A stretch of DNA of 64,000 nt from a bacterium (GTDB lineage Bacteria; Elusimicrobiota; Elusimicrobia; UBA1565; UBA9628): positions 159,044 through 223,043 of the forward strand of contig JAKAQO010000002.1 in the NCBI GenBank assembly GCA_021822495.1. Reading direction: 5' to 3'. Under the pieces are notes generated by a model. It searched no databases. It had not been told where the DNA came from and saw nothing but the letters and a program-made list of their open reading frames with translations. A program made the translations under genes and the position numbers. Each line of letters begins with the position of its first letter. Position 1 is the first letter of the stretch. Below are positions 10,421 to 62,694 of the stretch, one piece after another.

Positions 10421-10555
10421 TTTGATTTGCTTTCTTCTAATAGCGCGCGCATTGGTATAACTATAGGAAATCCGTGCGAAATTTTTATTGCGTCCGCGCG
10501 AAATCTTGGCGAAATAATTTGACTGTTTTTATCGGAATCTGGAGCGCTCAATAAA

Positions 10556-10638
10556 AGAGGACTGTGCCGTTTCCTCATAATTCTTAGGGGCGGCGCTGTC
10601 CCGACCTTAAGATTATTATTGAGGAACGGGACTGTCCC
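10556..10638. repeat. Long imperfect palindromic element (about 83 bp)
   Basis: The left arm starts GGACTGTGCCGTTTCCTCA and the right arm ends TGAGGAACGGGACTGTCC; the arms are imperfect reverse complements over ~38 nt each, with the centre GGCGGCGCTGTCCCGACC. The right arm contains the GGGACTGTCCC core (10628-10638) found at many other places in this window. Its left half resembles 59741-59855, so this is a dispersed element. From 10421 to 10555 I see nothing else convincing apart from possible promoter sequence for the giant gene. Confidence 0.7.
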
Positions 10639-10646
10639 TGATTTTT

Positions 10647-10676
10647 TTGACACCCCGCCCTCGAATCTGCATCAAT
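10647..10676 (+). promoter_or_regulatory. Putative sigma-70 promoter of the HEPN remnant / nucleotidyltransferase
   Basis: A perfect -35 box TTGACA lies at 10647-10652 and ATCAAT at 10671-10676, spaced 18 nt. The ATG of the downstream small ORF begins only 5 nt after the -10-like box, so the transcript would be leaderless or nearly so. Confidence 0.45.
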
Positions 10677-10681
10677 AGCGT

Positions 10682-10804
10682 ATGACGCTGAATTTGAATG
10701 CCTTGGAAAAAGGAATTTCTTCCCTGGAGTCCGCGCTTCGGTTTGCGGGCTCGCCGAGCTATCTTCGGCTTTCCGAGGAGGAACGAGTTGAAAAACCGCA
10801 ATGA
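10682..10804 (+). pseudogene. Truncated HI0074-type (HEPN) nucleotidyltransferase partner, 40 aa
   Basis: The ORF reads MTLNLNALEKGISSLESALR... and ends EERVEKPQ. It matches only the first ~35 residues expected of the HI0074 / NTase substrate-binding (HEPN-fold) family, whose members have the core RFEFxxELAWK and the RxxxxHxY motif; both are missing here but present in the intact paralogue at 58953-59474. Its TGA overlaps the ATG of the next gene (ATGA at 10801-10804), the coupling usual for these pairs. The simplest reading is an internal deletion that kept the start and the coupling stop. A genuine short peptide cannot be excluded. Confidence 0.55.
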
Positions 10805-11124
10805 TTGACGTTTCGGCCGAACACTTAGCCATAATCGAAAAAATACTGCTTCGGCGCGTGCCGCGCGCCAAAGTGATGGCTTTCGGTTCGCGCGTAGCGG
10901 GAAACGCCGTCGATTATTCCGATCTCGATTTGGCCATAGAAGCCGATGGGAAACTCGATCTCGCGACTTTGGGAAATCTCAAGGCGGATTTCGATGATTC
11001 CGAGATTCCCTTCAGGATGGATGTCTTGGACTTTAACGCCGTCTCTCCAGAATTTAGGGAAATTATAAAATCCCATTGCGAGACAATCCTTCTTCCCGCT
11101 GCGTGTCAAGGGGAAGCGAAATGA
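10801..11124 (+). CDS. MNT-type minimal nucleotidyltransferase (HI0073-like), 107 aa
   Basis: A small nucleotidyltransferase of the pol-beta superfamily. The hallmark GSx10DxD motif is present: FGSRVAGNAVDYSDLDLAIE at about residues 29-48, with a third acidic residue in RMDVLDF near 77. In this family MNT proteins pair with HEPN partners; in MntA/HepT-type toxin-antitoxin modules the MNT protein acts as antitoxin by adenylylating HepT. Here the partner just upstream is truncated, so this may be an orphan antitoxin. The start overlaps the upstream stop by ATGA. Confidence 0.8.
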   Translation: MIDVSAEHLAIIEKILLRRVPRAKVMAFGSRVAGNAVDYSDLDLAIEADGKLDLATLGNLKADFDDSEIPFRMDVLDFNAVSPEFREIIKSHCETILLPAACQGEAK

Positions 11125-11160
11125 ATTCTCGGGGTTCCAGGGACGCGTCCTGTAATTTCG

Positions 11161-11232
11161 CGTCATTGCGGCGTTTCATGCGGACGGAATAGTTCAGTTT
11201 GGATTCCCCGCTTAAGACCGCGGGGAATGACG
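11161..11232. repeat. MITE-like palindromic element, 72 bp
   Basis: The ends are inverted repeats (CGTCATT at 11161-11167, AATGACG at 11226-11232). Inside is a perfect 9-bp stem ATTCCCCGC (11203-11211) / GCGGGGAAT (11220-11228). The layout resembles short non-autonomous palindromic repeats that begin CGTCATTGCG and end GGGAATGACG in many bacterial genomes. No coding content. Confidence 0.55.
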
Positions 11233-11237
11233 GCTTT

Positions 11238-11266
11238 AAAAAAAAGGGGACTGTCCCCTTTTTTTA
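11238..11266. repeat. GGGGACTGTCCCC palindrome with A/T flanks (terminator-like)
   Basis: An A-run, then GGGGACTGTCCCC (11246-11258), then a T-run: a symmetrical stem that could act as a bidirectional rho-independent terminator after the nucleotidyltransferase. The same core recurs at 10628, 25695, 25743, 42852, 42881, 48665 and 62675, so it is also a dispersed repeat rather than a local terminator only. Confidence 0.65.
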
Positions 11267-11368
11267 ATGAATAAACCGGAAAAGGGCCATGGGGAGACCC
11301 AAGAAGGCGACGGTTAAGGCGCTGGCCCTGATGATCAGCTTGATCATCTGCTCAAATCTTGCGTTCAT
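11264..11368 (-). CDS. Possible small membrane peptide, 34 aa
   Basis: ATG at 11366-11368, TAA at 11264-11266. The peptide starts MNARFEQMIKLIIRASALTV and continues with a hydrophobic AFLGLPMALF segment, so it could form one membrane helix. No clear Shine-Dalgarno precedes it. The stop lies in the T-run of the palindrome. It is the only plausible ORF in the gap before the M1 peptidase gene; it may be chance. Confidence 0.3.
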   Translation of the reverse strand: MNARFEQMIKLIIRASALTVAFLGLPMALFRFIH

Positions 11369-11414
11369 GACGTTTCGGCCGAGCGCCGCGCGTTGCCAAA
11401 AAGACTAAAACTCC

Positions 11415-14400
11415 CTACTGGTTTTTCACGTGCGCGTTAAGCCAGGCCGACAAAGCTTGAGATTGGGTTTCTTTAAAATGAACCCCGATCTCAAGGGCTT
11501 CCAAAGTCTGGCTGATTTGCTTGTCCGCCCCCTCCACCTGATGTTGGGGATCGGCGAAAAAGGTTTTGATTTGATTGAGCCAATCCTGAGACCACAAGTT
11601 GGAAAGTGACCCGATAATTCTCAAAGCTCCAAGCCCGCCGGCTTTTTTCAAGAAATCGGCCCAGTGACCCTCGACAAATTTCCAAGCCGTTCCCTGAACC
11701 TCTTTGTTCGCCAAAAGACCGCTGACTGATTTCCAGGAATCTTGCCCGCGAATTTCATCGGTCAAACTCATTTGAAGAAGTTTTTGGGCCAAGGCGTCCT
11801 GTTTAAAATCCGTCATCGCCATCTGAAAATTATTTCTCTCCTCCGGCGTTTTGGCCGCGTCCATTCTTTGACGATACTCCTCAAAGAGCGCCTCGTTACC
11901 GGACTTGGCCCCAAGCCCCAAAACGACGCCGACCAAGGAAGGATCAAGCGTGTTGGGATCTTTTAAATATTGATTAAGGCGGTCTTGAATCTGAGCCGAG
12001 AGTTCCGGCGTCGGCGCGATCTCTCCCAAAGTCGAAAGAACGGCGGCGCGAGAAGATTTTATCTCATCCGAATCATTCGGGCTTCCCCATCCCAACTTTT
12101 CCCAATGCGGAAGCAGAATTTCCTGGGCCCACTTTTGCATCAACGGCCGGTCTTGAGGAGAAGTCAAATTATCATCCATCGCCAGCAAATACCCGGCGAT
12201 ATCGCGCAAGACAATGCGGCTATCATCAGTCTTAAGTTTCTCAAGAGCGTTCAAAAAAACCGATAGCGGAACGTCTCCCGCCTTGGCCTCGGCCCACAAA
12301 TCGTTAAGGAAACCCGAACGTTCAATCGGGGTTAAATCCGAAATTGAATTTTCAAGCGCGCCTTGGAACTTTGAGTCCAAAGCCGTCCGGTAAAAACCGG
12401 TTTGGTCTTGATTGGCATAAACCCACTCAACCGCGCCTTGAGCGGGAAGAGAAACCGTCATCTTTTTTTGTTTTAAATTCACGCGGTAAGAATGAACGCC
12501 GGATGAATCCTTATATTTCAAAACGACGGGAATGTTCCAGAGAGAATCTCCGCTCTCGATACTCCCATGCGCGGAGAAGCGGCGCTGGGATAAACTAAGC
12601 GCACGGTTATCCGGAGAAAGAGAAGAAACGCTCACCAGGGGATAACCGGGAATCGTAATCCAGTCATTGGCAATGGAGGCAACATCTTGGCCGGAAGCCT
12701 TTGATAGTTCATTCCACAAATCTTCTTTATTGGTGTTTTGGTATTGATACTTCGTCAGATAATTGTGAAGGCCTTTTCTGAAATTCACGTCTCCCAAATA
12801 ATTTTCCAGCATCCGCAAGAAAGCCCCGCCCTTGTTATAGGTCAAGGCGTCAAACATCGCCTGCGCCTGTTGCGGAGAAGAAACCTTTGAAAAAATCGGC
12901 CGCGTGTTTCTCAAGGAATCAACCGACAAAGCCGAACGGGTAGACTCCAAGAAGTCTTCCCAGATATTCCAATCGGGATGGAGCTCGCTGATGGTCTTGT
13001 ACGACCTAAAATCAGCGAAGGCCTCGTTTAAAAAAAGTCCGTCCCACCATTTCATCGTGACCAAATCGCCAAACCATAAATGTTCCTGTTCATGGTCAAC
13101 GGTGATGGCGACGTTTTTCTTGACCCCCAAGGATGACCGGGCATCGGTAAAAATGGCGGCGTCCCGAAAGAAAATAGAACCCCAGTTTTCCATCGCCCCC
13201 GCGTCAAAGTCCGGCACCGCGACCAAATCCAGTTTAGGAAGCGGGTAATTGACTCCGTAATATTCGTTAAGGTGAAGAAGATTGGAGACGGCTTCGTTTA
13301 AGGCAAAATCCACCTGGTTCATATCCTCGGGTCGCGCCCAAACGCGAATCAAGGTTTTTCCGGCCATCTTGCTTTTAGAATCAAGCCGAGCGACCGCCAA
13401 AGCCAAGAGATAGGTTGACATTTTGGGAGACTGGGCGAAAGAAACCGTTTGAAGGTTTCCGTTTTCCACGCGCGAAAGGTCCGGCATATTGGAGACGATG
13501 GATAAATCTTTCGGCGCCGTTACGGTCAGCTTAAATTTTGCCTTAAAAAACGGTTCATCCCAGGAGGGAAACATTCTTCGCGCATCCGCCGGCTCAAATT
13601 GGCTAAAAGCGTAATTTTCTTCTTGGCCGTCGTGTTTGGCCTTTGACAAATAGAGGCCTCTTAGGTTTTGATTGAGCTTTGCCGAATATCGAAACTCAAG
13701 AGACACAGGGCCCAAGGGAAGCGTCTTTCCGGCGTCAAGGGTCAAGATTTGTTTTTCTGGGTCAAAATGAATCTGACTTTGAGGGAGAACGGCCCCGTTT
13801 AAACGCACTTCCGAAATATCCATCGCCGCGGCGTTAAGAATAATTTTGTCGGTTTCCTTCTTAACCACGGCTTGAATGGTCGCCTCGCCCGAAAAATCCT
13901 GGGTCTCCGGATTGACACTCAGTTTCAGATCATAGGTTTGAGGCAAAATATCGGTCGGAAGCTGACCGGGATAAGATTCTTCCAAGGCGGGCTTTGAAAG
14001 CCTTAAACTCGACGCAGAGATTCCTTCTTCGTTTTTCGCAAGAATCTGACCGCGACCCGTCCCATGATCGAAGAGACGTTCTAAGCGGCCAAAAGCGCGA
14101 TCCGGGGAAACAAGATTCTGAATATTATTTTTAAGGACGCGCGCTTTTTTCTTAAAGGAAAGGACCGCTTCTGAAATTTTGGAGAGTTTGGAAGCGGGCG
14201 CCGGAACATGGTTTGAGACTTTGACCGCGTTTAAATGTTGGACGGATTCTAGCGGCGCATCTATTTTAATCTGTTGTTCAACGCCCGCCTCATCCTGATT
14301 TAAGATCAAATTTTGGTCCGGCAAGGCGCTTAAAATTCCATTTTCTCCGGCAACGGGTAAATCTTGAGACTGAATCTCAATGGGAGAGCCTTGAAGAGAA

Positions 14401-14495
14401 GATTCCATTTTAGCCGATTCCTGAAGGGCAAAAACCCGCGCTGAAATAAGAATTCCCGGCAAGACGCTGAGTAAAGAGTAAGGTTTCCTGGGCAT
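11415..14495 (-). CDS. Exported M1 family aminopeptidase, 1026 aa
   Basis: A zinc aminopeptidase of the gluzincin M1 family. Around residue 433 is the exopeptidase motif GAMENWG; around 466-470 the zinc motif HEQEH, with the third ligand Glu in WDGLFLNEAFADF. The C-terminal third resembles the ERAP1/Ape2-type helical domain (DQTGFYRTALDSKF). The first ~25 residues form a signal peptide, followed by ~150 residues of low-complexity pro-region ending in FGRLERLFDHGTG, an extension not usual in the family. A similar pro-region occurs in the CPBP-HtrA protein at 23747-26242. The start is supported by an AAAGGAGAA SD and an upstream promoter. It probably acts in the periplasm or outside, trimming peptides. 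Confidence 0.93.
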   Translation of the reverse strand: MPRKPYSLLSVLPGILISARVFALQESAKMESSLQGSPIEIQSQDLPVAGENGILSALPDQNLILNQDEAGVEQQIKIDAPLESVQHLNAVKVSNHVPAPASKLSKISEAVLSFKKKARVLKNNIQNLVSPDRAFGRLERLFDHGTGRGQILAKNEEGISASSLRLSKPALEESYPGQLPTDILPQTYDLKLSVNPETQDFSGEATIQAVVKKETDKIILNAAAMDISEVRLNGAVLPQSQIHFDPEKQILTLDAGKTLPLGPVSLEFRYSAKLNQNLRGLYLSKAKHDGQEENYAFSQFEPADARRMFPSWDEPFFKAKFKLTVTAPKDLSIVSNMPDLSRVENGNLQTVSFAQSPKMSTYLLALAVARLDSKSKMAGKTLIRVWARPEDMNQVDFALNEAVSNLLHLNEYYGVNYPLPKLDLVAVPDFDAGAMENWGSIFFRDAAIFTDARSSLGVKKNVAITVDHEQEHLWFGDLVTMKWWDGLFLNEAFADFRSYKTISELHPDWNIWEDFLESTRSALSVDSLRNTRPIFSKVSSPQQAQAMFDALTYNKGGAFLRMLENYLGDVNFRKGLHNYLTKYQYQNTNKEDLWNELSKASGQDVASIANDWITIPGYPLVSVSSLSPDNRALSLSQRRFSAHGSIESGDSLWNIPVVLKYKDSSGVHSYRVNLKQKKMTVSLPAQGAVEWVYANQDQTGFYRTALDSKFQGALENSISDLTPIERSGFLNDLWAEAKAGDVPLSVFLNALEKLKTDDSRIVLRDIAGYLLAMDDNLTSPQDRPLMQKWAQEILLPHWEKLGWGSPNDSDEIKSSRAAVLSTLGEIAPTPELSAQIQDRLNQYLKDPNTLDPSLVGVVLGLGAKSGNEALFEEYRQRMDAAKTPEERNNFQMAMTDFKQDALAQKLLQMSLTDEIRGQDSWKSVSGLLANKEVQGTAWKFVEGHWADFLKKAGGLGALRIIGSLSNLWSQDWLNQIKTFFADPQHQVEGADKQISQTLEALEIGVHFKETQSQALSAWLNAHVKNQ

Positions 14496-14521
14496 AACGA
14501 TTCTCCTTTGGATATTGTTTT

Positions 14522-14569
14522 ATTGTACAAGGAGACTTAAAAGTTTGCCTGGGCCCAAAGGCCTAGAAA
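14522..14569 (-). promoter_or_regulatory. Promoter with AGGCCTTTGGGCCC upstream box (M1 peptidase)
   Basis: On the minus strand: AGGCCTTTGGGCCC ending at 14551, exactly 23 nt, then TACAAT (14527-14522), then ~26 nt containing the SD before the ATG. The same box, spacing and -10 precede the gene at 23747-26242. The box overlaps the last codons and stop of cinA. Confidence 0.6.
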
Positions 14570-15873
14570 CGCCTTGAAAAAAGGCCTAGTGTAGTGTCCG
14601 CTAATTCATGGAGAGCGAAATGAAATGCCCAGGAGACGGCGCGTTTTCTGACCGCTTCACGGTCTCCCGACAAGCGCAGTTCGCGCGCAAAGGGCTTTGA
14701 GCCAAAACCCGAAAGCCCCACATAGACCAACCCGACGGGTTTTTTTGCGCTTCCTCTGCCGGGGCCGGCAATGCCGGTAATTGACACTCCAAGAGAGGCC
14801 TTCATTTTATGGCGCGCGCCTTCGGCCATTTCAATGGCGCACTCAGGCGAGACCGCCCCGAAGCGAGAAAGAGTTTCCGGACGGACGCCCAAAAATTCTT
14901 TTTTAATCTCGTTGGAGTAGGAAATGACCCCGCCAAGAAAATAATCGGAACTTCCGGGAACGCTGGTTAGTCTTGAGGCTAAACCTCCGGCCGTGCAAGA
15001 CTCGGCGACAACTAAAGTTTTTTTCCTTTTCAAGAGTTCTTGTCCCAACGCGTTTTCAAGGGTCGCATCTCCCTCCCCAAAAACAAACGCGCCTACTTTT
15101 CGCAAAATCTCGGCCTTGATCTTAAGCATGAGCTTCTTAGCTTCTCCGGCAGTTTTGCCTCTGACAGAGACGTGGAAATCAACCTGGGCCGAAAGCCCCA
15201 AGATCGTAAATTGCGCCTGGTTTTTAAACGCCCGCATGACCGAGGATAATTTTTCATCCGCCACCGATTCAAAAATTCCGGACAAGTGAAAGACCCTTTG
15301 TTCGACAAATAAACCGCGCCCATACAGAGAACGCAAACGAGGCAATACGATATTTTCAAACATCGGAGACATCTCGGCGAAAGGCCCGGGCAAAAGAAAG
15401 AGCGCTTGGGGCCAATCATTCTTGCGGGGAATTTTCAGCATTTGACCGGGAGCCGATCCATTAGGGTTTTCAATGACCCGAGCGCCTTGAAGAACGTAAG
15501 CCTGCTTCTTATTCTCCTCTGGAATAGGAAGCCGGAAGCGAGAGAAGCGCGCTTTAATTTTCTCAAAAATCTCCGGATGATAGATGAGCGGCCTGTTTAA
15601 AGCCTCGGAAGCGGCTTCGCGGCTGAGATCATCAAAGGTCGGTCCCAAGCCTCCACAAACAATTAGCGCGGCGGAATGGAGCGACCAATCCCGAATCGCG
15701 GAAGAAATTGCTTTTTGGTCATCCGGAACGGTGGCCGCCCGAACGACGGAAAAACCCGCGTTTTTTAGCCGCAAGCACAAATAATTTTGATGCGTGTTCG
15801 GACGCCCTTCCAAAAGCTCGGTTCCGGTAAAAATAATTTCAATTCGAGGCGTTCGTTGAGGAGAAGCGTTCAC
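14563..15873 (-). CDS. cinA: CinA family protein (MoaB-like domain + nicotinamide-nucleotide amidase domain), 436 aa
   Basis: The N-terminal ~170 residues are the MoaB/COG1058-type domain (IEIIFTGTELLEGRPNTHQN, IVCGGLGPTFDD). The C-terminal ~160 residues are the CinA/PncC amidohydrolase domain (VVAESCTAGGLASRLTSVPG, then GVISYSNEIKKEFLGV, SITGIAGPGRGSAKKPVG). PncC deamidates NMN in pyridine-nucleotide recycling; the N-terminal domain is described as an ADP-ribose pyrophosphatase in some members. Full length for a two-domain CinA. It starts with GTG at 15871-15873, overlapping the TGA of the DUF3467 gene (GTGA). It is last in the envelope operon that begins at 18298. Confidence 0.92.
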   Translation of the reverse strand: MNASPQRTPRIEIIFTGTELLEGRPNTHQNYLCLRLKNAGFSVVRAATVPDDQKAISSAIRDWSLHSAALIVCGGLGPTFDDLSREAASEALNRPLIYHPEIFEKIKARFSRFRLPIPEENKKQAYVLQGARVIENPNGSAPGQMLKIPRKNDWPQALFLLPGPFAEMSPMFENIVLPRLRSLYGRGLFVEQRVFHLSGIFESVADEKLSSVMRAFKNQAQFTILGLSAQVDFHVSVRGKTAGEAKKLMLKIKAEILRKVGAFVFGEGDATLENALGQELLKRKKTLVVAESCTAGGLASRLTSVPGSSDYFLGGVISYSNEIKKEFLGVRPETLSRFGAVSPECAIEMAEGARHKMKASLGVSITGIAGPGRGSAKKPVGLVYVGLSGFGSKPFARELRLSGDREAVRKRAVSWAFHFALHELADTTLGLFSRRF

Positions 15874-22194: not shown

Positions 22195-23703
22195 TCACCC
22201 CTTGGTCTTGGACTTCCGAGCGATGGCGCCGCTTGGCTTATTTCCATTCCCATAGGGATACCACCAAGGCTTGTTTTCCTGTTCAAAATCCCAATGGACA
22301 TGCTTGGTCTGACGGAAAGCTTCCAAGCCTTCCTCTCCAAGCTCGCGATGTCCTCCCGTCGCTTTATAGCCCCCAAAAGGCCCCGCGTCATTATCCGTCA
22401 GCGGATCATTAATCCAAATAGTACCGGCTTGGACGTTCTCAAAAAACTTTTTTATTTTTTTGGAGTCATTGGTGTAGAGTACGGCGCCGAGACCGTAAAT
22501 GGTGTCATTGGCAAGAGCAATTGCCTCGTCGAAATCCTTATAGGTCATAATTGGACAAACAGGACCGAACGTCTCGTCGCGCATCACCCGCATGGAGCGC
22601 TCGACTCCAGTAAGGATGGTCGGCTCGTAAAAATATCCCTTCTTGAGATGTCCAGGGCGTTTGCCGCCAAAAATCGCCTTGGCTCCGCGCTTAATGGCAT
22701 CGGCTACGTGCGCCTCCACTTTTCTACGGTTCTCCGCTCCAATCATGGGTCCGATATCGGTATCTGGATTCATTCCCGGCCCGACAACAAGACCCTTGGT
22801 GAAGTCCGCTAGTTTTACGACAAATTCTTGGGCTATGGATTGGTGGACATAAATGCGTTCCGAGGACGTACACACTTGGCCCGCGTTTAAAAAAGCTGCC
22901 CAGGCGACCGCTCGGACAACGACCTCGATATCCGAATCTTCCGCTATCACGAAAGGGTCTTTGCCCCCAAGCTCGAGATGGCATTTTTTGACCATCTCCG
23001 CGCATATTTTAGCGATAGTTTTCCCCGTTTCAAGCGAACCCGTGAAGGCGACCATGGCTACGTCCGGGTGACGCACCAATGCGTCGCCGGCGGTTTCGCC
23101 GCGGCCAGTGACTATATTGACGACGCCGGAAGGCAAACAGTCAAAAATTGAGGAAAGCATAAGCGTCGAAAGAGGCGTTTGTTCCGCCGGTTTGATTACC
23201 ACGGTATTGCCGGCGGCCAAAGCCGGCGCAACTTTCCATGCAAGAAGAAGAATCGGATAGTTCCAAGGTATAATACAGCCAACTACCCCATAGGGCTCTT
23301 TGAGCACCATGGCAAGCTGACTCGATTCAACCGAAGGAATAACTCGGCCACGCGCATTGCGCTGCAATTCCGCATAATAGTCGAAACAGTTGACCACCCA
23401 TCCGATTTCATCGACATTTTCATTGAAAGGTTTTCCGCCTTCCAAGGTCATGACTTTGGCGATTTCCCTCGTCTTGACCTTGAACCGATGAGCGATTTCG
23501 TGGAGAAGCTCCGCCTTTTGATGGGCGGCGACTTCTTTCCACCAAGTGGGAAACGCCGTCTTCGCGGCCGCGACCGCGCGAAAAACGTCATCGCGGGTGG
23601 CGTCTGGAACTTCATCGATGATTTCTTCGTTTGCCGGATTAATAACGGGGATGGGTTTACCCCCGCTTTGGAAAGAACGATGGTTGATCCACAGCGTCTT
23701 CAT
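22195..23703 (-). CDS. NAD(P)-dependent aldehyde dehydrogenase, 502 aa
   Basis: ALDH superfamily, full length. Motifs: PWNYPILLLAWK, VIKPAEQTPLS, FTGSLETGK, catalytic Glu in LELGGKDPF, catalytic Cys in LNAGQVCTSSE, and FGPVCPIMTY. It is similar to betaine-aldehyde or gamma-aminobutyraldehyde dehydrogenases. Next to a polyamine importer, oxidation of an aminoaldehyde from putrescine or spermidine breakdown is a reasonable inference, though no aminotransferase or amine oxidase is nearby. ATG at 23701-23703 with GAGGAA upstream; 43 nt after the protease gene. Confidence 0.9.
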   Translation of the reverse strand: MKTLWINHRSFQSGGKPIPVINPANEEIIDEVPDATRDDVFRAVAAAKTAFPTWWKEVAAHQKAELLHEIAHRFKVKTREIAKVMTLEGGKPFNENVDEIGWVVNCFDYYAELQRNARGRVIPSVESSQLAMVLKEPYGVVGCIIPWNYPILLLAWKVAPALAAGNTVVIKPAEQTPLSTLMLSSIFDCLPSGVVNIVTGRGETAGDALVRHPDVAMVAFTGSLETGKTIAKICAEMVKKCHLELGGKDPFVIAEDSDIEVVVRAVAWAAFLNAGQVCTSSERIYVHQSIAQEFVVKLADFTKGLVVGPGMNPDTDIGPMIGAENRRKVEAHVADAIKRGAKAIFGGKRPGHLKKGYFYEPTILTGVERSMRVMRDETFGPVCPIMTYKDFDEAIALANDTIYGLGAVLYTNDSKKIKKFFENVQAGTIWINDPLTDNDAGPFGGYKATGGHRELGEEGLEAFRQTKHVHWDFEQENKPWWYPYGNGNKPSGAIARKSKTKG

Positions 23704-23746
23704 ATTAATTTTTTCCTCGAATTGTCCGGAAAAATAGCGCGGAAAA

Positions 23747-26242
23747 TTAAATTCTCGGCGCGCCGAAAATAATGGGCAGCGTCACGAAGACATTGCCTCG
23801 GCGGACAACCAAACTCGCCGGATCTCCGGGGCGGAGATGCACTAGGGCTTTCTCCAGAGAACGGAAATTCGGAGTGTTAATCACCATCGGCATTCCGCCA
23901 ATGGGAATCAAGATAACCCGCGCAATCACGTCCCCGGGCCGTAACTTGGCCGCGGCGGCGGGAGAGCCCGGGCGAACGGCGTCAATCTGAACGCCCTTGG
24001 CCGGGCGCAAAGAGGCGATAATTCCCAGATGGGCAAAGTCAATATTGCCGACGGCCTGATATTCCGAAACCGCGTCCAACAGCTCATTTGCGGCAATCGC
24101 AAATCCGATTCCAACCGAACCTCCCTCTTGAGCCGGCGTGTAAATCGCGACATCCATACCGACAAGTTCGCCCTTGGAATTTAAAAGCGGGCCGCCGGAA
24201 TTACCCGGGTTAATCGAGGCATCAGTCTGAATATAATCATAAAGAAATTCCGGGCCGTTTCCAAGACGGCTGACGATGCCCCGGCTGGCAGTAAGCCCCA
24301 CGTCATAAGGATATCCCAAGGCAATCACTTTATCCCCCATGACTGGAGCGGTTCTCGCAATGGAAATATACGGATAGTTTTGGCCGGCGGGCAAAGTTGG
24401 AAGCCTTAAAATCGCGATGTCTTTTTGATGGTCGATGGCCAAGACTTCGGCGACGCTGGGAATACCGTTAATTAAAATTTTCAAGGCCGTTCCGGGCGGG
24501 ACATCCCCCGCGACATGGGCATTGGTCAAAGCGATGCCGGAAGGCGAAATCAAATATCCGGTTCCGAGTCCTCGCCCATCTCCTGAATAGACCTTGAGAA
24601 CGGCGGGCTTCACTTTCTCAATAATTTGTTTGGGAGAAAGAGAGGGCAAATTACGCGGAGCCTCAGGCACGGAAAACTTTTCAATCGCGGGCACTTGCGC
24701 CACGATGGAAGGAACCGCTAACGTAACGGCGGGCAGCGCTAGGGAATTTACATTCGCGCGAAACTCGCTTCCAGAGATTCCAAGAGAAACGGCAATCAAA
24801 AGAGCCGGGATTAAAAATCTCACGCTTTGACGCAGCTTCCGAATATCCCATTGCCCTTTTTTAAATTTTTGATATAAGCTTTTCACGAACGCAAAACCCA
24901 AAACGCCCAGGGACGCGACGGCCAAGGTAATCCTATAGTCCTTAAAAACCGCCGGAGAAGCAAAATGAGACAACGCAATCCAGGTTCCCAAAAGCCAGAG
25001 AAAATTATAGGCGTAATGGGCGACCGTCGAAGAAATCAAGGATCGGCTACGGTAAACGACAAAAGACAAAGCCGCTCCCATCACGCCCAGTTGAGCTAAA
25101 ATCAAGGGATAAGCGCCCCAAGCCGCGAGATGGGCTTTGGCAAAAAGAACAGCCGAGGAACCCGCCGCGACAAAAAAGGCGTTAGAGGTTATTTTTTTCC
25201 CAATCCAGTTAAGAGCCTTGGGCAAGCGATTTTTAAGCGGAGAAAAGAAATCCGGCAACAAACTTAATTTTTTGGATATAAAATTAAAAGTTGGACGAGC
25301 CGCAGCCGCCGCCAGGAAAACGCCGCCAAATAAAAATCCGCGATAATGAATTTCCTCTAAAGCCGCTTTTGAAAATAATCCCCAGGAAAGAAAAGACCCC
25401 GCGTGAGCGTTCAAGGCCGCCATAATCTGAGCCGGCCCGTCGTGAATCAGAAGTTCCGCGTGCCCGGACTTTTGAAGAGCCTCCGGCGTAAGACCCAAGA
25501 GCCAGTTGAGCTTTAAATGGTTCACCCAGGCGGAATTTAAAATCTGGCTTATCGCATAAACGATTAAGTGCGAAATTCCTTGCATGATAAATCCCCACTT
25601 AAGGCCGTAGAGAATCTGGCCGCCGAGAGTCATCTTCTTATAGGACGGGCCGCCATAAGAATCCGGAACTTGAACTTCGGGGATGACGGAGTTAGGGACT
25701 GTCCCTGATTCCGCGCTAGGCCTCAAAGAGTTGACGGAATTGGGGACTGTCCCTAACTCCTTAACTCCAGCGCCCGCTTCCAACTTTCCCGTTCCAGCCT
25801 TTTCTCCGAAAAATCGATCAAGAAAACTTTTGGAAACCGCAAGATTTTTTCGCCCCAACGCCGCCTGAGTCTTTTTTTGAAATTTTTGGAAACCTTTTTT
25901 AAATGAATGGAGGGATTTTTCCTTGGAGCGAGATTTCGGAGCTCTCCCTAATTTCTTAAGTTTTTTCTCCGCTTTCGGCCAAAACCCTTCCTTCATTAAC
26001 ACAGAGGGCTTGGCTAATTCAACGGAAACGGAGATAGGGAGTGTCCCTATTTCCGCGTTAGGCATTAGGGAGTTGGAATTGACGTCCAGTGTCCCCATCT
26101 CGATAGGGGCATCATGTCCGGCATTTTCTTCCGCCCCAATTCCCGCCCACGCGAGCGGCGAAAGACTGCCCCAAATCAAGCTTAAGGATAAAATGAAAGA
26201 CAGCAGGGAGCGAAGATGAAAACGGGTTTTTAAAGAGTTCAT
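23747..26242 (-). CDS. CPBP intramembrane protease - HtrA/PDZ fusion protein, 831 aa
   Basis: Residues 1-33 are a signal peptide (LSFILSLSLIWGSLSPLAWA), followed by ~170 residues of basic, low-complexity pro-region. About 205-460 is a multi-pass CPBP (Rce1-like) domain with EEIHYRG (~296), FAKAH (~368) and HYAYN (~410), the three catalytic motifs. About 525-735 is a trypsin-like domain with His in LTNAHVAGD, Asp in HQKDIAIL and Ser in NPGNSGGP. About 740-831 is a PDZ domain. All catalytic residues of both proteases are present. The fusion of intramembrane and HtrA proteases is unfamiliar to me. Two palindromic repeats are inserted in frame in the pro-region. The ATG directly follows a -10 box, with no SD. 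Confidence 0.9.
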   Translation of the reverse strand: MNSLKTRFHLRSLLSFILSLSLIWGSLSPLAWAGIGAEENAGHDAPIEMGTLDVNSNSLMPNAEIGTLPISVSVELAKPSVLMKEGFWPKAEKKLKKLGRAPKSRSKEKSLHSFKKGFQKFQKKTQAALGRKNLAVSKSFLDRFFGEKAGTGKLEAGAGVKELGTVPNSVNSLRPSAESGTVPNSVIPEVQVPDSYGGPSYKKMTLGGQILYGLKWGFIMQGISHLIVYAISQILNSAWVNHLKLNWLLGLTPEALQKSGHAELLIHDGPAQIMAALNAHAGSFLSWGLFSKAALEEIHYRGFLFGGVFLAAAAARPTFNFISKKLSLLPDFFSPLKNRLPKALNWIGKKITSNAFFVAAGSSAVLFAKAHLAAWGAYPLILAQLGVMGAALSFVVYRSRSLISSTVAHYAYNFLWLLGTWIALSHFASPAVFKDYRITLAVASLGVLGFAFVKSLYQKFKKGQWDIRKLRQSVRFLIPALLIAVSLGISGSEFRANVNSLALPAVTLAVPSIVAQVPAIEKFSVPEAPRNLPSLSPKQIIEKVKPAVLKVYSGDGRGLGTGYLISPSGIALTNAHVAGDVPPGTALKILINGIPSVAEVLAIDHQKDIAILRLPTLPAGQNYPYISIARTAPVMGDKVIALGYPYDVGLTASRGIVSRLGNGPEFLYDYIQTDASINPGNSGGPLLNSKGELVGMDVAIYTPAQEGGSVGIGFAIAANELLDAVSEYQAVGNIDFAHLGIIASLRPAKGVQIDAVRPGSPAAAAKLRPGDVIARVILIPIGGMPMVINTPNFRSLEKALVHLRPGDPASLVVRRGNVFVTLPIIFGAPRI
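25688..25760. repeat. Palindromic element copy inside the CPBP-HtrA coding sequence (copy 1)
   Basis: 73 bp with perfect 12-bp inverted ends: GGAGTTAGGGAC (25688-25699) and GTCCCTAACTCC (25749-25760). It contains two GGGACTGTCCC cores 48 nt apart (25695, 25743). Read on the minus strand in frame, it encodes ELGTVPNS...ESGTVPNS. No stop is introduced. Confidence 0.8.
26030..26102. repeat. Palindromic element copy inside the CPBP-HtrA coding sequence (copy 2)
   Basis: A diverged copy of the element at 25688-25760. Cores start at 26037 (GGGAGTGTCCC) and 26085 (TCCAGTGTCCC), again 48 nt apart, and TTCCGCG(C/T)TAGGC between the cores is shared by both copies. The minus strand encodes EMGTLDVNS...AEIGTLPIS in frame. 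More mutated than copy 1, hence probably older. Confidence 0.7.
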
Positions 26243-26248
26243 GCCGCT

Positions 26249-26296
26249 ATTGTAAGATTCTTTCGCCGAAAAGAAATGGGTCCAAAGGCCTAGAAA
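26249..26296 (-). promoter_or_regulatory. Promoter with AGGCCTTTGGACCC upstream box (CPBP-HtrA gene)
   Basis: Minus strand: TTTCTAGGCCTTTGGACCC ending at 26278, exactly 23 nt, TACAAT (26254-26249), then 6 nt to the ATG. Box, spacing and -10 match the M1 peptidase promoter at 14522-14569. A third related box (CAAAGGACCTAG) lies at 26306-26317. Confidence 0.6.
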
Positions 26297-26340
26297 TTAA
26301 ACGGCAAAGGACCTAGAAGGAGTGGGTCTAAAAATGTTAT

Positions 26341-26391
26341 CAGGCCTAGGCCCTTTGGCGCTATACGTCTTATAAGAAAACATGGAATAAT
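26341..26391 (+). promoter_or_regulatory. Putative divergent promoter with CCTAGGCCCTTTGG box (ChaN-like gene)
   Basis: Plus strand: CAGGCCTAGGCCCTTTGGCG at 26341-26360, then ~24 nt to AATAAT (26386-26391). This resembles the box of the two protease promoters but with one extra C and a less exact -10. About 30 nt of leader with a GGAG follow. Confidence 0.4.
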
Positions 26392-26427
26392 ACGTAAGGA
26401 ATACGAAATAGCAATGGAGCCATGCAA

Positions 26428-27402
26428 ATGAAAAGGATAGCGTTTCTCTGTTTTCTGGCGTTGATTACCCCGCGAAATTTATTTTCCCAAAGCGCGATCA
26501 AGCAACTTAAATCCTTGGCGGGAAATAACTCCGCCATGGCGAAGATTAAGCTCAACCCAAAACCCGTCACCCTGTCCTGGAATGTTTCGCCCCAAACCCT
26601 TATTTTTTCGGCCAAAGCCAAAAATTTAATTTCGGTGGAAGACTTTGAGGCGGCCCTTTCCCTTCTCAACATCGTCTATGTCGGAGAATTTCACGATAGT
26701 CTCGCCGATCACAAAATTCAAGCCGCCGTTCTCTCTGAAATGGCCAAAACTCATCCGCGCCTTGTCCTGGGCCTTGAGGCGGTGAATGTTCTCCATCAAA
26801 AAACCCTCGACGATTATATTTCCGGAAAAATTTCTGATTCGCAATTCGCCGATTTTTGGAATCACAATGTGGGCTTTCTCAAGGATTATCGCCCTGTTTT
26901 GGAAACGGCCAAGCGAGAACACATCCGCCTCATCGGCCTTAACGCGCCTCCCGCCATCGTTCACAAAGCGCGGGAGGACGGGCTTTCGGCTCTCACACCC
27001 GAAGAGCGCGCCCTTTTGCCGAAAACGATCGGAGAAATCAAGAACCCTCGTTATTACGCGATGGTCAAAAGTTATTTCGGAGAAATCTCTCCCAAGGAAC
27101 TGAAGCGTTATCTCTTGGCCATGCAGATTTGGAGCGAGACCATGGCCTCAAACGTGGTCAAGCAGAGACGACTCGGAAATTCCGTCATGGTCATCGCGGG
27201 GCTGGGCCACATGGTTTATGGAGGCGGAATACCCGAAGGCGTCAAGGCCCGCCTTCAAGACCAGTCCAGCGCGGTCATCTTGCCCTATCCCCCCAACGGA
27301 GAAAGCCAAAGTAAAAGCGAAATTCTTAAAACGCTTTCCAATCCAAACGAGGACGCCTCTCAGTGGGCGGATTTCTTCTGGCTTTTGCCCTCGGGTAATT
27401 AA
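26428..27402 (+). CDS. ChaN-like (haem-binding uptake) exported protein, 324 aa
   Basis: The ChaN / DUF399 family pattern is clear: NIVYVGEFHDSLADHKIQ (~88-105), LVLGLEAVN, FWNHNVGFLKDYRPVLETAK, IWSETMASNV, and GLGHMVYGGGIPEGV near the C-terminus. ChaN of Campylobacter is a haem-binding outer-membrane lipoprotein tied to iron uptake. The signal peptide (MKRIAFLCFLALITPRNLFS) lacks a lipobox Cys at the usual place, so it is probably soluble periplasmic. I prefer ATG 26428 over 26422 because GGAG is 8 nt upstream. It ends in a 4-bp convergent overlap with the M23 gene. Confidence 0.88.
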   Translation: MKRIAFLCFLALITPRNLFSQSAIKQLKSLAGNNSAMAKIKLNPKPVTLSWNVSPQTLIFSAKAKNLISVEDFEAALSLLNIVYVGEFHDSLADHKIQAAVLSEMAKTHPRLVLGLEAVNVLHQKTLDDYISGKISDSQFADFWNHNVGFLKDYRPVLETAKREHIRLIGLNAPPAIVHKAREDGLSALTPEERALLPKTIGEIKNPRYYAMVKSYFGEISPKELKRYLLAMQIWSETMASNVVKQRRLGNSVMVIAGLGHMVYGGGIPEGVKARLQDQSSAVILPYPPNGESQSKSEILKTLSNPNEDASQWADFFWLLPSGN

Positions 27403-28439
27403 AAATTCGGCGGCAACACGGATTTGATTCGGCGGAAATTAAGATCAGACTTTAGGGGCGCTGGAAATTTCCAGATTTGAGAGGTCTTTTTTCCCGTGAA
27501 GTCTGAAACGACGACCTCAAGGCCCACGCAACCAACCGGAAGACTTTTTATCTCAGGAAAACGAAAGAGAAATCTCCGGGAACGGCCCATGTCCACTTCG
27601 TTTTTCAAATTTTTTCCGCTTGAAAAAGAAATCGGCGCGGTTTGATAAATCCGGGAAACCCCGGTAAAAAAATCTTTTCCGGGCAAGCGGTCAAATTTTC
27701 TCTGGGCCAGTAGAATTCTTTTTTTCGCGCCCCCCATTAGAGCCCAGACCGAGATAGAAGCGGGCGTTGTCTCAACCTTTGAGGGAGAAACGACATCAAA
27801 GGCGTCCACAATCAAGGCTGCGGATTTTGAATCGCTCGGTTCAACCTGAAACCCCCGCTGGTTGTCAGCCAAGACCCGGTTTTGAGAGTCAATCAAATAA
27901 AGTCCACGAATGACGGGCGGAGTATCTTGAGGCAAAAGCGGGAAAAACCTAAGCGGCTCCTGATAATGTCCGCTTGAATCAATCACGTTAATATGAACAT
28001 GCGGAGAAATTCCGTAACCCATTTGGGAGGCGTCATAAATTTTTCCAAGAAGGGCGCCGGAGGAAACAGTTCCCCCTTTTTTTGCCAGATCAAATAGGGA
28101 AGCGGGAATCGTTTTGGGATCGAGATGATGAAATTGCCAGACCGTCCCGTTTTTTTGAACGATCGCGATTTGAAAAGTATAGGGAATTTTAATCCGGTAA
28201 TAATATCCAAGCGAGATTTTTCCGGAAACTGGCGCATAAACCGGAGTTCCCGCCGGTTCCAAGATATCCAGGCCGTGGTGAAAGCCCGGTTCATCTCCAT
28301 AAAATTGAAGAGTATAAGCGAGATTTCCGATATTAATAGGAACGTCTTTAACGGGCCAAGGCACAACGGAAGCGCCGCTTTGAGAAAAAGAAACGGCCGG
28401 TAAAAATGCGGCAAAAATCAAAAAGCCAAGAAGTCTCAC
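27399..28439 (-). CDS. M23 family peptidase-like exported protein, 346 aa
   Basis: A signal peptide (LLGFLIFAAFLPAVSFSQS) precedes an M23 domain at ~50-175: HHGLDILEPAGTPVYAPVSG (HxxxD), WQFHHLDP and SPHVHINVID. The latter half (~180-346) is an all-beta region of unknown type. The zinc ligands appear present. The GTG start at 28437-28439 overlaps the nuoF stop (GTGA), so it would be translated from the complex I transcript, an odd partner for a cell-wall enzyme. Confidence 0.85.
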   Translation of the reverse strand: MRLLGFLIFAAFLPAVSFSQSGASVVPWPVKDVPINIGNLAYTLQFYGDEPGFHHGLDILEPAGTPVYAPVSGKISLGYYYRIKIPYTFQIAIVQKNGTVWQFHHLDPKTIPASLFDLAKKGGTVSSGALLGKIYDASQMGYGISPHVHINVIDSSGHYQEPLRFFPLLPQDTPPVIRGLYLIDSQNRVLADNQRGFQVEPSDSKSAALIVDAFDVVSPSKVETTPASISVWALMGGAKKRILLAQRKFDRLPGKDFFTGVSRIYQTAPISFSSGKNLKNEVDMGRSRRFLFRFPEIKSLPVGCVGLEVVVSDFTGKKTSQIWKFPAPLKSDLNFRRIKSVLPPNF

Positions 28440-29686
28440 TGGGATTTTGAGAGTTTAAAATCCTCCGGAAATTTTTTCATAAATCCCCGGACGACCATGC
28501 CAACGGTATCCCCTAAAGCGCAAATGACTTTTCCGGTGATGTTCTCGCCCACGCGCTGAAGATTGGGAAAATCCTCCGTAGAACCTTCTCCGGACATGAC
28601 CCGTTCTAAAATCCGGGTCGTCCATTCGGAACCCTCGCGGCACGGCGTGCACTGCCCGCAGGATTCATGCGCCAAGAAACGCTCGATGTTGTGCGCCGTT
28701 TCCACCATGTTCCGAGTCTCATCCAAAACGACAATTCCGCCGGCTCCAAGGAAAGTTCCTAAGCCCCTCAAACTTTCAAAATCCATCGGAACGTCAATTT
28801 CAGAAGCGGCAATGGGAGGAGTGGAAGTCCCGCCAGGGATGACGCATTTAAGCGCCCTTCCGCCTTTAATGCCGCCCGCGGTTTCAATCATCTTCCTCAG
28901 GGGAGTTCCCATCGGAAACTCATACACTCCGGGATTTTCAACATCTCCCGAAATGGAAAAAAGTCCGGTCCCGCCGGTTTTCGCAACCCCAAGTTTCGCG
29001 AAAGCTTCCCCCCCGTCTTTCAAAATAAGCGGAAGCATGGCCAAGGTCTCGACATTGTTGACCACCGTCGGTTGTCCCATGAGACCTTTCACCGTCGGAA
29101 AAGGCGGCGGCTGCCGGGGCCAGGCTTTTTTGCCTTCCATTGTTTCAAGAAGAGCGGTATCCAGCCCACAAATATAGGCGCCAGCTCCGCGCATGAGCGA
29201 AATACGGCAGGAAAATCCGCTACCCATGATATTTTTTCCAATAAGCCCCTCGTGTTCCGCCTCGGCGATGGCCTTAGAGAGAATTTGATGTTGAACGGCG
29301 TATTCGCCGCGAATAAAGATAAACCCGTCTTCCGCTCCAATCGCATAAGCGGCAATTAAAATCCCCTCAAGAACGCTGTGTGGAGATTTGGTCATCAAAA
29401 CTCTATCTTTAAAACATCCGGGCTCGGACTCATCGGCATTGGCCACCACATATCGGGGCCCCGGCAATTTATCCTTGGGTGGAACTGTTTCCCATTTCAT
29501 GCCGGTCGCAAAACCCGCTCCGCCAAGTCCCCTTAAATTTGATTTTTTGACCTCTGCCGTCACATCTGAGGGCTTAAGCGAAAGCGCTTTTTTAAGGCCT
29601 TCGTAACCGCCCAATTTCTTATAAGTCTCCAATTCATGCAAATTCGGCTCGTCAAAATGCTTCTTTAAAATTTTAGTCTCGGTCAT
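28436..29686 (-). CDS. nuoF: NADH-quinone oxidoreductase subunit F, 416 aa
   Basis: Flavoprotein subunit of complex I: binds NADH and FMN and one [4Fe-4S] cluster. Motifs: LRGLGGAGFATGMKWETVP, YVVANADESEPGCFKDR, YICGLDTALLETMEG, and the cluster ligands ESCGQCTPCREGSEW. The start is ATG 29684-29686 (MTETKIL), preceded by AAAGGAAACC and overlapped by the stop of the 37-codon ORF. It is last of the nuo genes in the operon. Confidence 0.95.
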   Translation of the reverse strand: MTETKILKKHFDEPNLHELETYKKLGGYEGLKKALSLKPSDVTAEVKKSNLRGLGGAGFATGMKWETVPPKDKLPGPRYVVANADESEPGCFKDRVLMTKSPHSVLEGILIAAYAIGAEDGFIFIRGEYAVQHQILSKAIAEAEHEGLIGKNIMGSGFSCRISLMRGAGAYICGLDTALLETMEGKKAWPRQPPPFPTVKGLMGQPTVVNNVETLAMLPLILKDGGEAFAKLGVAKTGGTGLFSISGDVENPGVYEFPMGTPLRKMIETAGGIKGGRALKCVIPGGTSTPPIAASEIDVPMDFESLRGLGTFLGAGGIVVLDETRNMVETAHNIERFLAHESCGQCTPCREGSEWTTRILERVMSGEGSTEDFPNLQRVGENITGKVICALGDTVGMVVRGFMKKFPEDFKLSKSQ

Positions 29687-42700: not shown

Positions 42701-42937
42701 AACGGCGACGACCAGACTCAAATGAACGGTTTCCGTTGAAGCCACCGGGGCAATTTTAGATGAAACCGCGATTTGAGGCGCAATATGACCCGTCAAAGCG
42801 ACTAAGGGGCCTGCGGCCCTGGCGAAAACGGGAAACAAAAGAAATAAAAAAGGGGACAGTCCCCTTTTTACTAAAAAAAAGGGGACTGTCCCTTTTTTAC
42901 TAGCGAACCTTGACTTCTTCGTAAATGGGCGTCCCAC
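39794..42937 (-). CDS. S53 (sedolisin/kumamolisin) protease with FN3 and Por-type C-terminal domain, 1047 aa
   Basis: Pro-kumamolisin domain at ~50-190 (VHLSLVVAVDQNLMNQTLAQ). The catalytic S53 domain spans ~225-640: Glu/Asp in EVALDMELM (~320), oxyanion Asp in AAAGDAGAYD (~405), nucleophile Ser in GGTSCAAPLWAA (~542). Two FN3-like domains follow, then a ZU5-like region, and the last ~75 residues (NPIRPARG, IYTISGLLVKRL, ASGVYFVFVRG) resemble a type IX-type sorting domain. S53 enzymes act at acid pH outside the cell. The only usable start is GTG 42937, overlapping the ilvE end by 38 nt; the signal peptide is encoded by two palindromic repeats. Confidence 0.9.
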   Translation of the reverse strand: MGRPFTKKSRFASKKGTVPFFLVKRGLSPFLFLLFPVFARAAGPLVALTGHIAPQIAVSSKIAPVASTETVHLSLVVAVDQNLMNQTLAQIYSGDPLHRNFLTPAQFAQKFNLALKRQTLKSFAQSAGLSLDGPDDPNSLVVKVMGSASQVENALSVHLNYYQHPSGQIFRANDSNPMIPQSLTPNLLAVVGLSNFRGAHKPRLAFRRSGISGLASPKTLSGMTGPGPGLAPADIESVYSLNNSLNGSGQTLALLELDGYITNSNGYPSDVALYEGQFSLPQTPITYVSVDNQANLCGSGQNLPCNSSTASSDGGMTEVALDMELMVALSSGASDILVYTAPNTDQGILDAYSLIASSDLANNISTSWGQDEEDTYLSDNSFMNTENTIFQQMASQGQTIYAAAGDAGAYDASGYGESWSGNLLTDDPASQPYVTGVGGTSLSGTLGGSITETVWNYNNECNSSNNPGTNCATYGAGGGGVANYPSTNWPLPSYQNGVSTEYSSTNRNVPDVALNADPNSSPYSICIGGTCNNGNATLTGGTSCAAPLWAAMTARINQLRASEGYSPLGFVSPALYALASGSSYSTIFNDITSGNNGYYNAGPGYDNASGWGSFKGNALIEALAPLPAPQNVSPIMIGVSSITWSWSPVVGVSSYNVYSATVSPNEFLANVSASVSSFTLTGLPPNTTEALTIGAVNVLGNQGPTSSPSYSVTLASPLTQNSNTPAETVFASSISVTYAICSNCAGYLLETSTASDFTGVVTSSLTENTALYSLVLSNLYPETTYYLRLGALNWALSPNYISLASTSTLSISQAAQVITSSGGVVTFLGPKGLSTIDFPPNTFNEPVTVVVTTPSLSDLSCQMPPGKPMTDEGVGITVALNPAVEPPPNFEVPISISYANAVLPPGVQPQNFFIARCDLNVGTWIPLISNSDTSQELVTASSDRFSTFEIMGLASLPSSTQGIQISNNPIRPARGITDTTFSNLPANSSLEIYTISGLLVKRLTADSTGVAKWDATNSSGRMVASGVYFVFVRGNGTETTLKVAVQR
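42849..42899. repeat. Double GGGGACWGTCCC palindrome forming the S53 signal-peptide coding region
   Basis: GGGGACAGTCCCC at 42852-42864 and GGGGACTGTCCC at 42881-42892, each flanked by A and T runs. The stretch lies between the ilvE stop and the conserved part of the S53 protease and is read through in frame as KKGTVPFF...KRGLSPFLFLLF. Confidence 0.8.
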
Positions 42938-62670: not shown

Positions 62671-62694
62671 AAAAGGGGACTGTCCCCTTTTTTT
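62671..62694. terminator. GGGGACTGTCCCC palindrome after efp
   Basis: GGGGACTGTCCCC at 62675-62687 with A and T runs. It follows the efp stop (62693-62695) directly and precedes the HAD gene on the same strand, so it may end or attenuate the efp transcript. Also a copy of the dispersed repeat core. Confidence 0.5.

Follow-up and report, generated by a model that had tools for sequence, protein, structure and literature searches.

The protease gene and its two palindrome pairs

The window, meaning the whole 64,000-nucleotide stretch of DNA analysed, carries a gene for an 831-residue protease, identified from Pfam matches (Trypsin_2, 6.9e-26; Rce1-like, 1.2e-08; PDZ, weak) and from same-genus orthologues with identities of 61-77%. 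Two inverted palindrome pairs are lodged in its pro-region, after the signal peptide and before the first domain, the Rce1-like match beginning at residue 289. The open reading frame passes through both pairs without a stop. The elements of the gene, and further members of the same repeat family in the window, are as follows.

23747..26242, reverse strand: host gene, CPBP (Rce1-like) + trypsin/HtrA + PDZ protease, 831 aa
25688..25760, reverse strand: copy 1, inverted palindrome pair in frame, ELGTVPNS ... ESGTVPNS (repeat analysis; hairpin z -8.3)
25688..25712, reverse strand: palindrome 1b, coding strand GGAATCAGGGACAGTCCCTAACTCC
25713..25735, reverse strand: inner part of the copy 1 spacer (full 37-nt inter-core spacer, 25706-25742)
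25736..25760, reverse strand: palindrome 1a, coding strand GGAGTTAGGGACAGTCCCCAATTCC
26030..26102, reverse strand: copy 2, decayed pair, EMGTLDV ... EIGTLPIS (weak hairpin, z -1.7)
10628..10638, forward strand: another core of the family, intergenic
11247..11257, forward strand: core with class A stems (AAAAGGGGACTGTCCCCTTTT), intergenic
42853..42892, strand unassigned: inverted pair of class A, close to the 5' end of an open frame of 1057 aa
48666..48676, reverse strand: class A core, intergenic
62676..62686, forward strand: class A core at the edge of a 240-aa open frame

In copy 1, two intact cores (GGGACTGTCCC, at 25695 and 25743) are spaced 48 nt apart within inverted arms of 26 nt (25688-25713 and 25735-25760) that are 88% complementary, and the single strand is predicted to fold into one long, almost perfect hairpin of -24.4 kcal/mol (z -8.3). 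Copy 2 keeps the 48-nt spacing, with one core at 26037 (GGGAGTGTCCC) and a decayed one at about 26085, and its predicted fold is weak (-9.6 kcal/mol, z -1.7). The original prediction had described two inverted pairs with cores 48 nt apart, in frame and free of stops, which add GTVPNS and GTLPIS peptides to a variable pro-region, copy 1 being nearly perfect and copy 2 decayed. This description is confirmed in each respect. No Rfam family matches at gathering score within 23000-28500.

The same prediction spoke of a palindromic repeat of about 73 bp. A dispersed palindromic repeat is indeed present, but the 73-bp block is not its unit: over its full length, the block of copy 1 matches nothing but itself in the genus, and elsewhere only the palindromic ends recur. 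The 37-nt spacer is common to copies 1 and 2 alone (0 of 2000 shuffles as similar), with no further match in 934 kb of genus DNA. A simple 73-bp insertion as the unit of spread is rejected, given the dispersal of the ends only and this unique spacer. Since both copies contain it, independent insertions into the protease, as originally supposed, are argued against; a local duplication is no less likely, and the two copies probably derive from one pair in this way. In the protease orthologue of the related genome G002 (L034), an exact core is found inside the signal peptide, reading ILGTVPSS where the orthologues have VWGSLSPL, with the length unchanged.

A dispersed palindrome with a constant core and variable stems

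The dispersed unit is a symmetric, near-perfect palindrome of about 23-25 nt, consisting of a constant core, GGGACWGTCCC, and variable stems of about 6 nt. In the genome of the window (G000), 86 sampled copies yield the 25-nt symmetric consensus AAAAAGGGGACTGTCCCCTTTTT. These copies hold no information outside the 23-25 nt, and neither a GTAG, CGTC or other tag nor a conserved head tetranucleotide stands beside the palindrome; the family is therefore termed RAYT-associated REP-like (RAYT, REP-associated tyrosine transposase) and not GTAG REP. The genome-wide count is 142 exact cores in 2.2 Mb, with 0 for the reversed control. The window contains 34 core matches with at most two mismatches, against 12.4 expected, and 0 of 100 shuffles reach this number. 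Cores had also been predicted between genes elsewhere, which agrees with the intergenic copies of the window and with 49 of the 86 sampled cores.

Pairing is a regular property of the family. Among 100 listed places, 18 close pairs occur where 0.65 are expected, 12 of them in inverted A-T centre order (p 2e-4), and close inverted pairs are predicted to fold as hairpins with z of about -8 to -11. The spacings of close pairs in G000 group near 26-29, 36-38 and 48 nt, roughly in helical-turn steps. Among the matches listed, the palindrome is also present in Coriobacteriia, Clostridia, Prevotellaceae, Myxococcales, Acidobacteria and other groups. A search of literature outside subscription journals returned no published record of the GGGACWGTCCC core as a bacterial repeat.

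Two further arrangements involve the same cores. A composite repeat of about 85 bp (GACCTTAAG ... GGCACAGTCCCC) adjoins some of them (L013:14930-15020, L011:9634-9724 and about 10550-10640 of the window), and at least 12 related copies, part of them in tandem, occur in G003. At locus L349 (G000:C14:98601-118301), an island-like run of unknown genes of 170-300 aa, all on one strand, extends from about 2300 to 15400; the genes are separated by duplicated segments, each with a GGAAATAGGGACAGTCCC palindrome, which is a G003-type stem, and a phage-type tyrosine integrase is located at the contig end. The stem type, unlike the rest of the genome, suggests a transferred island.

Association with a RAYT transposase

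The Y1_Tnp gene of G000 at G000:C11:85009-85341 (locus L009) is a RAYT, scoring 82.4 bits against NF047646 (cut-off, 80 bits) and possessing the HxH motif (NHVHF). Five cores flank it or fall inside it, two of which encode its C-terminus, KKGTVPFFEISPKKGTVPFFSYQ. In the sister species G002, the orthologous RAYT (L064; 79 bits, just below the cut-off) keeps its position and its neighbours, and cores flank it as well. Cores lie within 500 bp at 9 of the 44 RAYT loci examined. Eight belong to core-rich genomes (one each in G000 and G002, five of the six in G042 and one of the five in G043), and the ninth to a gammaproteobacterial bin that the palindrome itself had led to. RAYT loci of copy-poor genomes among the 44 show none within this distance. 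Both sides of the gene are occupied in G000 (L009), G002 (L064), four of five G042 loci and L179, and the core-flanked RAYTs span sister species, a more distant genome and the gammaproteobacterial bin.

The stems flanking a RAYT mirror the main classes of its genome, class A in G000 (83%) and classes A and B1 in G002 (68% and 21%); in G042, the RAYTs shown differ from one another in the stems that surround the identical core. The sister species G001 has lost the RAYT at the syntenic locus and retains only 13 cores in its genome, and no RAYT is detected in G003 (23 cores) or in G004 (100 cores), the syntenic locus of G004 falling between two contig ends. At L308:2570-3000 (G001:C156), CGTC-type (dRS3-like) palindromes stand where other species have the RAYT or GGGACWGTCCC repeats, and the same is seen at L127 (G003). 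The palindrome family is accordingly assigned to the RAYT-associated REP/REPIN repeats.

Copies inside genes

In-frame copies occur in many genes of this Elusimicrobiota lineage. The 86 sampled cores comprise 49 intergenic ones and 37 in predicted genes; of these 37, 21 are internal, 9 lie close to the N-terminal end and 7 close to the C-terminal end. The share in genes, about 43% (95% interval 32-54%), is an estimate from a simple codon-usage gene finder applied to 382 kb chosen around cores; set against 92.6% coding sequence, it amounts to a strong depletion from genes, although the intergenic location is by no means exclusive. The hosts include arginine-tRNA ligase, argS (TIGR00456, 405 bits), and, by family models, a long-chain acyl-CoA ligase, an aldehyde dehydrogenase and dTDP-glucose dehydratase (rmlB). 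Class A stems are open in all six frames. For the stems found in the window copies, the GTVPNS frame is open on either strand, and ELGTVPNS is the sole open frame of the AGTT stem; this accounts for the GTVPNS in the protease peptides. The palindrome-encoded peptide is probably neutral filler. A terminator role was considered and rejected, as intergenic copies show no significant excess between convergent genes (8 of 35, p 0.21).

The same palindromes are paired in frame in an Atopobiaceae bin (L140:4700-4810), as CELGTVPNSQ ... CELGTVPNLQ, just before an apparent ABC-transporter ATPase domain. The CoA-transferase subunits (L013:6700-6900; orthologues L101, L102 and L103) form one open frame of 462 aa in G001, G002 and G004, joined via the palindrome or its relic; in G000 the subunits are separate, with a class A pair at the junction.

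Linker lengths at occupied sites

Copy 1 was originally regarded as inserted, a view that its length does not bear out: the linker from FFGEK to YGGPSY measures 58 residues, against 58-60 in all four orthologues, with no net gain. The refuting condition named in the original prediction, the same peptide at the same place in relatives, does not arise for copy 1: the peptide is absent from these four same-genus proteins, and a relic search there detected none. This last negative is weak, as the matrix used also failed to score the visible relics at L013:6773 in G001 and G002 as significant. In the region of copy 2, G004 carries the pair intact, and G001 has a relic that has decayed.

Net gain is likewise absent for pairs taken together. 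Across 26 comparisons, pair-bearing linkers of G000 are longer by a median of 0 residues than those of orthologues with no intact core, where +17 to +24 residues are expected; these comparisons come from about a dozen sites of variable length and are not independent within a site. Pair-bearing linkers being no longer than pair-free ones, simple insertion is unproven. Singletons are longer by 9-11 residues at three of four sites. For the window copies, the same-genus orthologues yield no plainly empty site that would reveal a net insertion. These sequence comparisons disfavour simple insertion, and the linker lengths would be compatible with insertion combined with deletion.

Shared sites with species-specific stems

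Orthologous stretches of G001-G004 were compared against G000. Of 14 sampled G000 sites with a counterpart in G004, 11 hold an intact core there, where about 0.01 is expected per site (100 cores in 2 Mb). The stem class differs at 8 of these 11 common sites, including L013:11786, which aligns poorly, and is unchanged at L021:5041, L021:5677 and L014:7976. Each genome has its own main stems: AAAA in G000 (83%), mostly AGAT and AGTT in G004, mostly AAAT in G003, and AAAA with AAAT in G002. At 12 orthologous cores, stem identity between G000 and G004 is 43%, against 51% for random cross-species pairs; within species it is 77% and 64%, and the flanking DNA is about 75-80% identical. The radical-SAM protein site reads EKGTVPFFQKKGTVPFS in G000, ELGTVPNSKELGTVPNS in G004 and, decayed, ELETASHSKKSGDASYA in G001, at equal length. 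The aldehyde dehydrogenase linker reads EKGTVPFS in G000, DKGTVPIS in G003 and ELGTVPNS in G004. The stems thus follow the species and not the site, a pattern of concerted evolution at inherited or repeatedly used sites.

Discussion

The feature is quite probably two inverted pairs of a RAYT-associated REP family, held in frame in a protease pro-region and spread and renewed by the RAYT. Other RAYTs have REP-dependent nuclease activity and are tied to their cognate REPs (PMC2817692, PMC3686654). By analogy, a RAYT of the HUH, Y1 type would cut and join single-stranded REP hairpins, so that the palindromes would propagate and be renewed. Gene-disrupting copies would be purged by selection, and the survivors would reside in tolerant linkers, in a frame left open. 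The RAYT of each lineage may favour its own stem type and spread that type, and older copies at shared sites, coding and intergenic alike, would be overwritten by the current stem type of the lineage, with REP-for-REP exchange by the RAYT as the candidate mechanism. In-place replacement of older copies, possibly by the RAYT, fits the pattern best. Several observations count against the RAYT-based reading: the palindrome has no GTAG, CGTC or other tag beside it, the window copies have no plainly empty counterpart, G003 and G004 hold cores although no RAYT is detected in them, some shared sites retain their stem class, and the argS copy of G004 is read in a different frame. The fuller proposal is tentative, with a probability well below one half: that RAYT-driven exchange overwrites inherited sites in place, including those in essential enzymes, and makes stems and peptides evolve in concert across the genome.

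A serious contender, though it too is held to fall short of probable, is that ancestral sites were empty and that each species independently inserted its own current palindrome into the same tolerant linkers, with no exchange of old for new. The argS copy of G004 is read in another frame than those of G000 and G002, which points to re-insertion at that loop, and in G003 or G001 the argS, caspase-like and CoA-transferase sites are taken up by CGTC-type repeats, the argS one in G003. L013:3755 is empty in G002, and the gains of the singletons resemble those of an insertion. Against this, the exact register is common between species at the aldehyde dehydrogenase linker, the HExxH hydroxylase, the radical-SAM protein and rmlB; pair linkers lack the expected gain; and decayed relics at some shared sites suggest an older occupant. 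Replacement and repeated independent insertion may both operate.

A host-functional motif maintained by selection on point mutations, in the manner of uptake-sequence dialects or HIP1, its stems tracking a changing binding protein, would explain the fixed core with species-specific stems, the orthologous sites of constant length and the presence inside genes. It is nevertheless improbable, as the same palindromes flank RAYTs in separate lineages, the pairs keep an inverted order, genes are strongly depleted of copies, and 142 exact cores in 2.2 Mb is a low density for an uptake signal. Elements like those of Rickettsia, or CGTC-type elements, with no dedicated transposase, share the in-frame residence in unrelated genes described for R. 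conorii; this is very improbable in view of the RAYT flanked by palindromes, the missing CGTC tag and the separate occurrence of CGTC-type elements in G001 and G003. That the protease merely carries ancestral sequence, palindromic by chance, would accord with the unchanged length at copy 1 and is scarcely credible given the genome-wide excess of cores, the hairpin z of -8.3 and the lack of peptide or relic at copy 1 in all four orthologues.

Like the RAYT-associated REPs and REPINs (Nunvar 2010, PMC2817692; Bertels and Rainey 2011, PMC3116915; Nunvar 2013, PMC3686654), the palindromes are short, numerous, arranged in hairpin-forming inverted doublets and found beside the RAYT gene, with REP class tied to the RAYT. 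They differ in being perfect palindromes that lack a conserved head tetranucleotide (such as GTAG or GTGG), and in that about 43% of sampled copies lie inside genes. Intragenic REPs of the GTAG/CGTC type and their dimers also lie in frame in known genes, encode about 20-30 residues and have tRNA synthetases among their hosts (PMC3733652); the palindrome here is another one, untagged, and its core is absent from the main text of that report. The dRS3/CGTC-1 repeats, which in G003 and G001 are found in some of these linkers, are CGTC-tagged, differ in sequence and have no known transposase (PMC3733652). The likeness to Rickettsia palindromic elements (Ogata 2000, reviewed in PMC10969869), originally proposed as a family resemblance, does not hold at that level and is retained as an analogy: those too are in-frame repeats tolerated by unrelated proteins, but their published description, families of about 150 bp, sets them apart from a unit of about 23-25 nt with a linked RAYT. 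Intragenic REPs (PMC3733652), REPINs (PMC3116915) and the 'orthoswitch' of REP class at orthologous RAYTs (PMC3686654) are already published. What looks new is the switch of stem class, in frame, at one and the same orthologous site. It extends past the published model, which leaves old copies in place to decay.

REP elements rank with the most common repeats of bacteria, yet there is no settled account of their movement and persistence. With sites common to five related species, fresh insertion can be weighed against overwriting in place, the reading frame serving as a built-in marker of each such event. The repeated in-frame linker peptides (GTVPNS, KKGTVPFF, RGQSPF) occur in open frames of several phyla, where they can mislead annotation and alignments.
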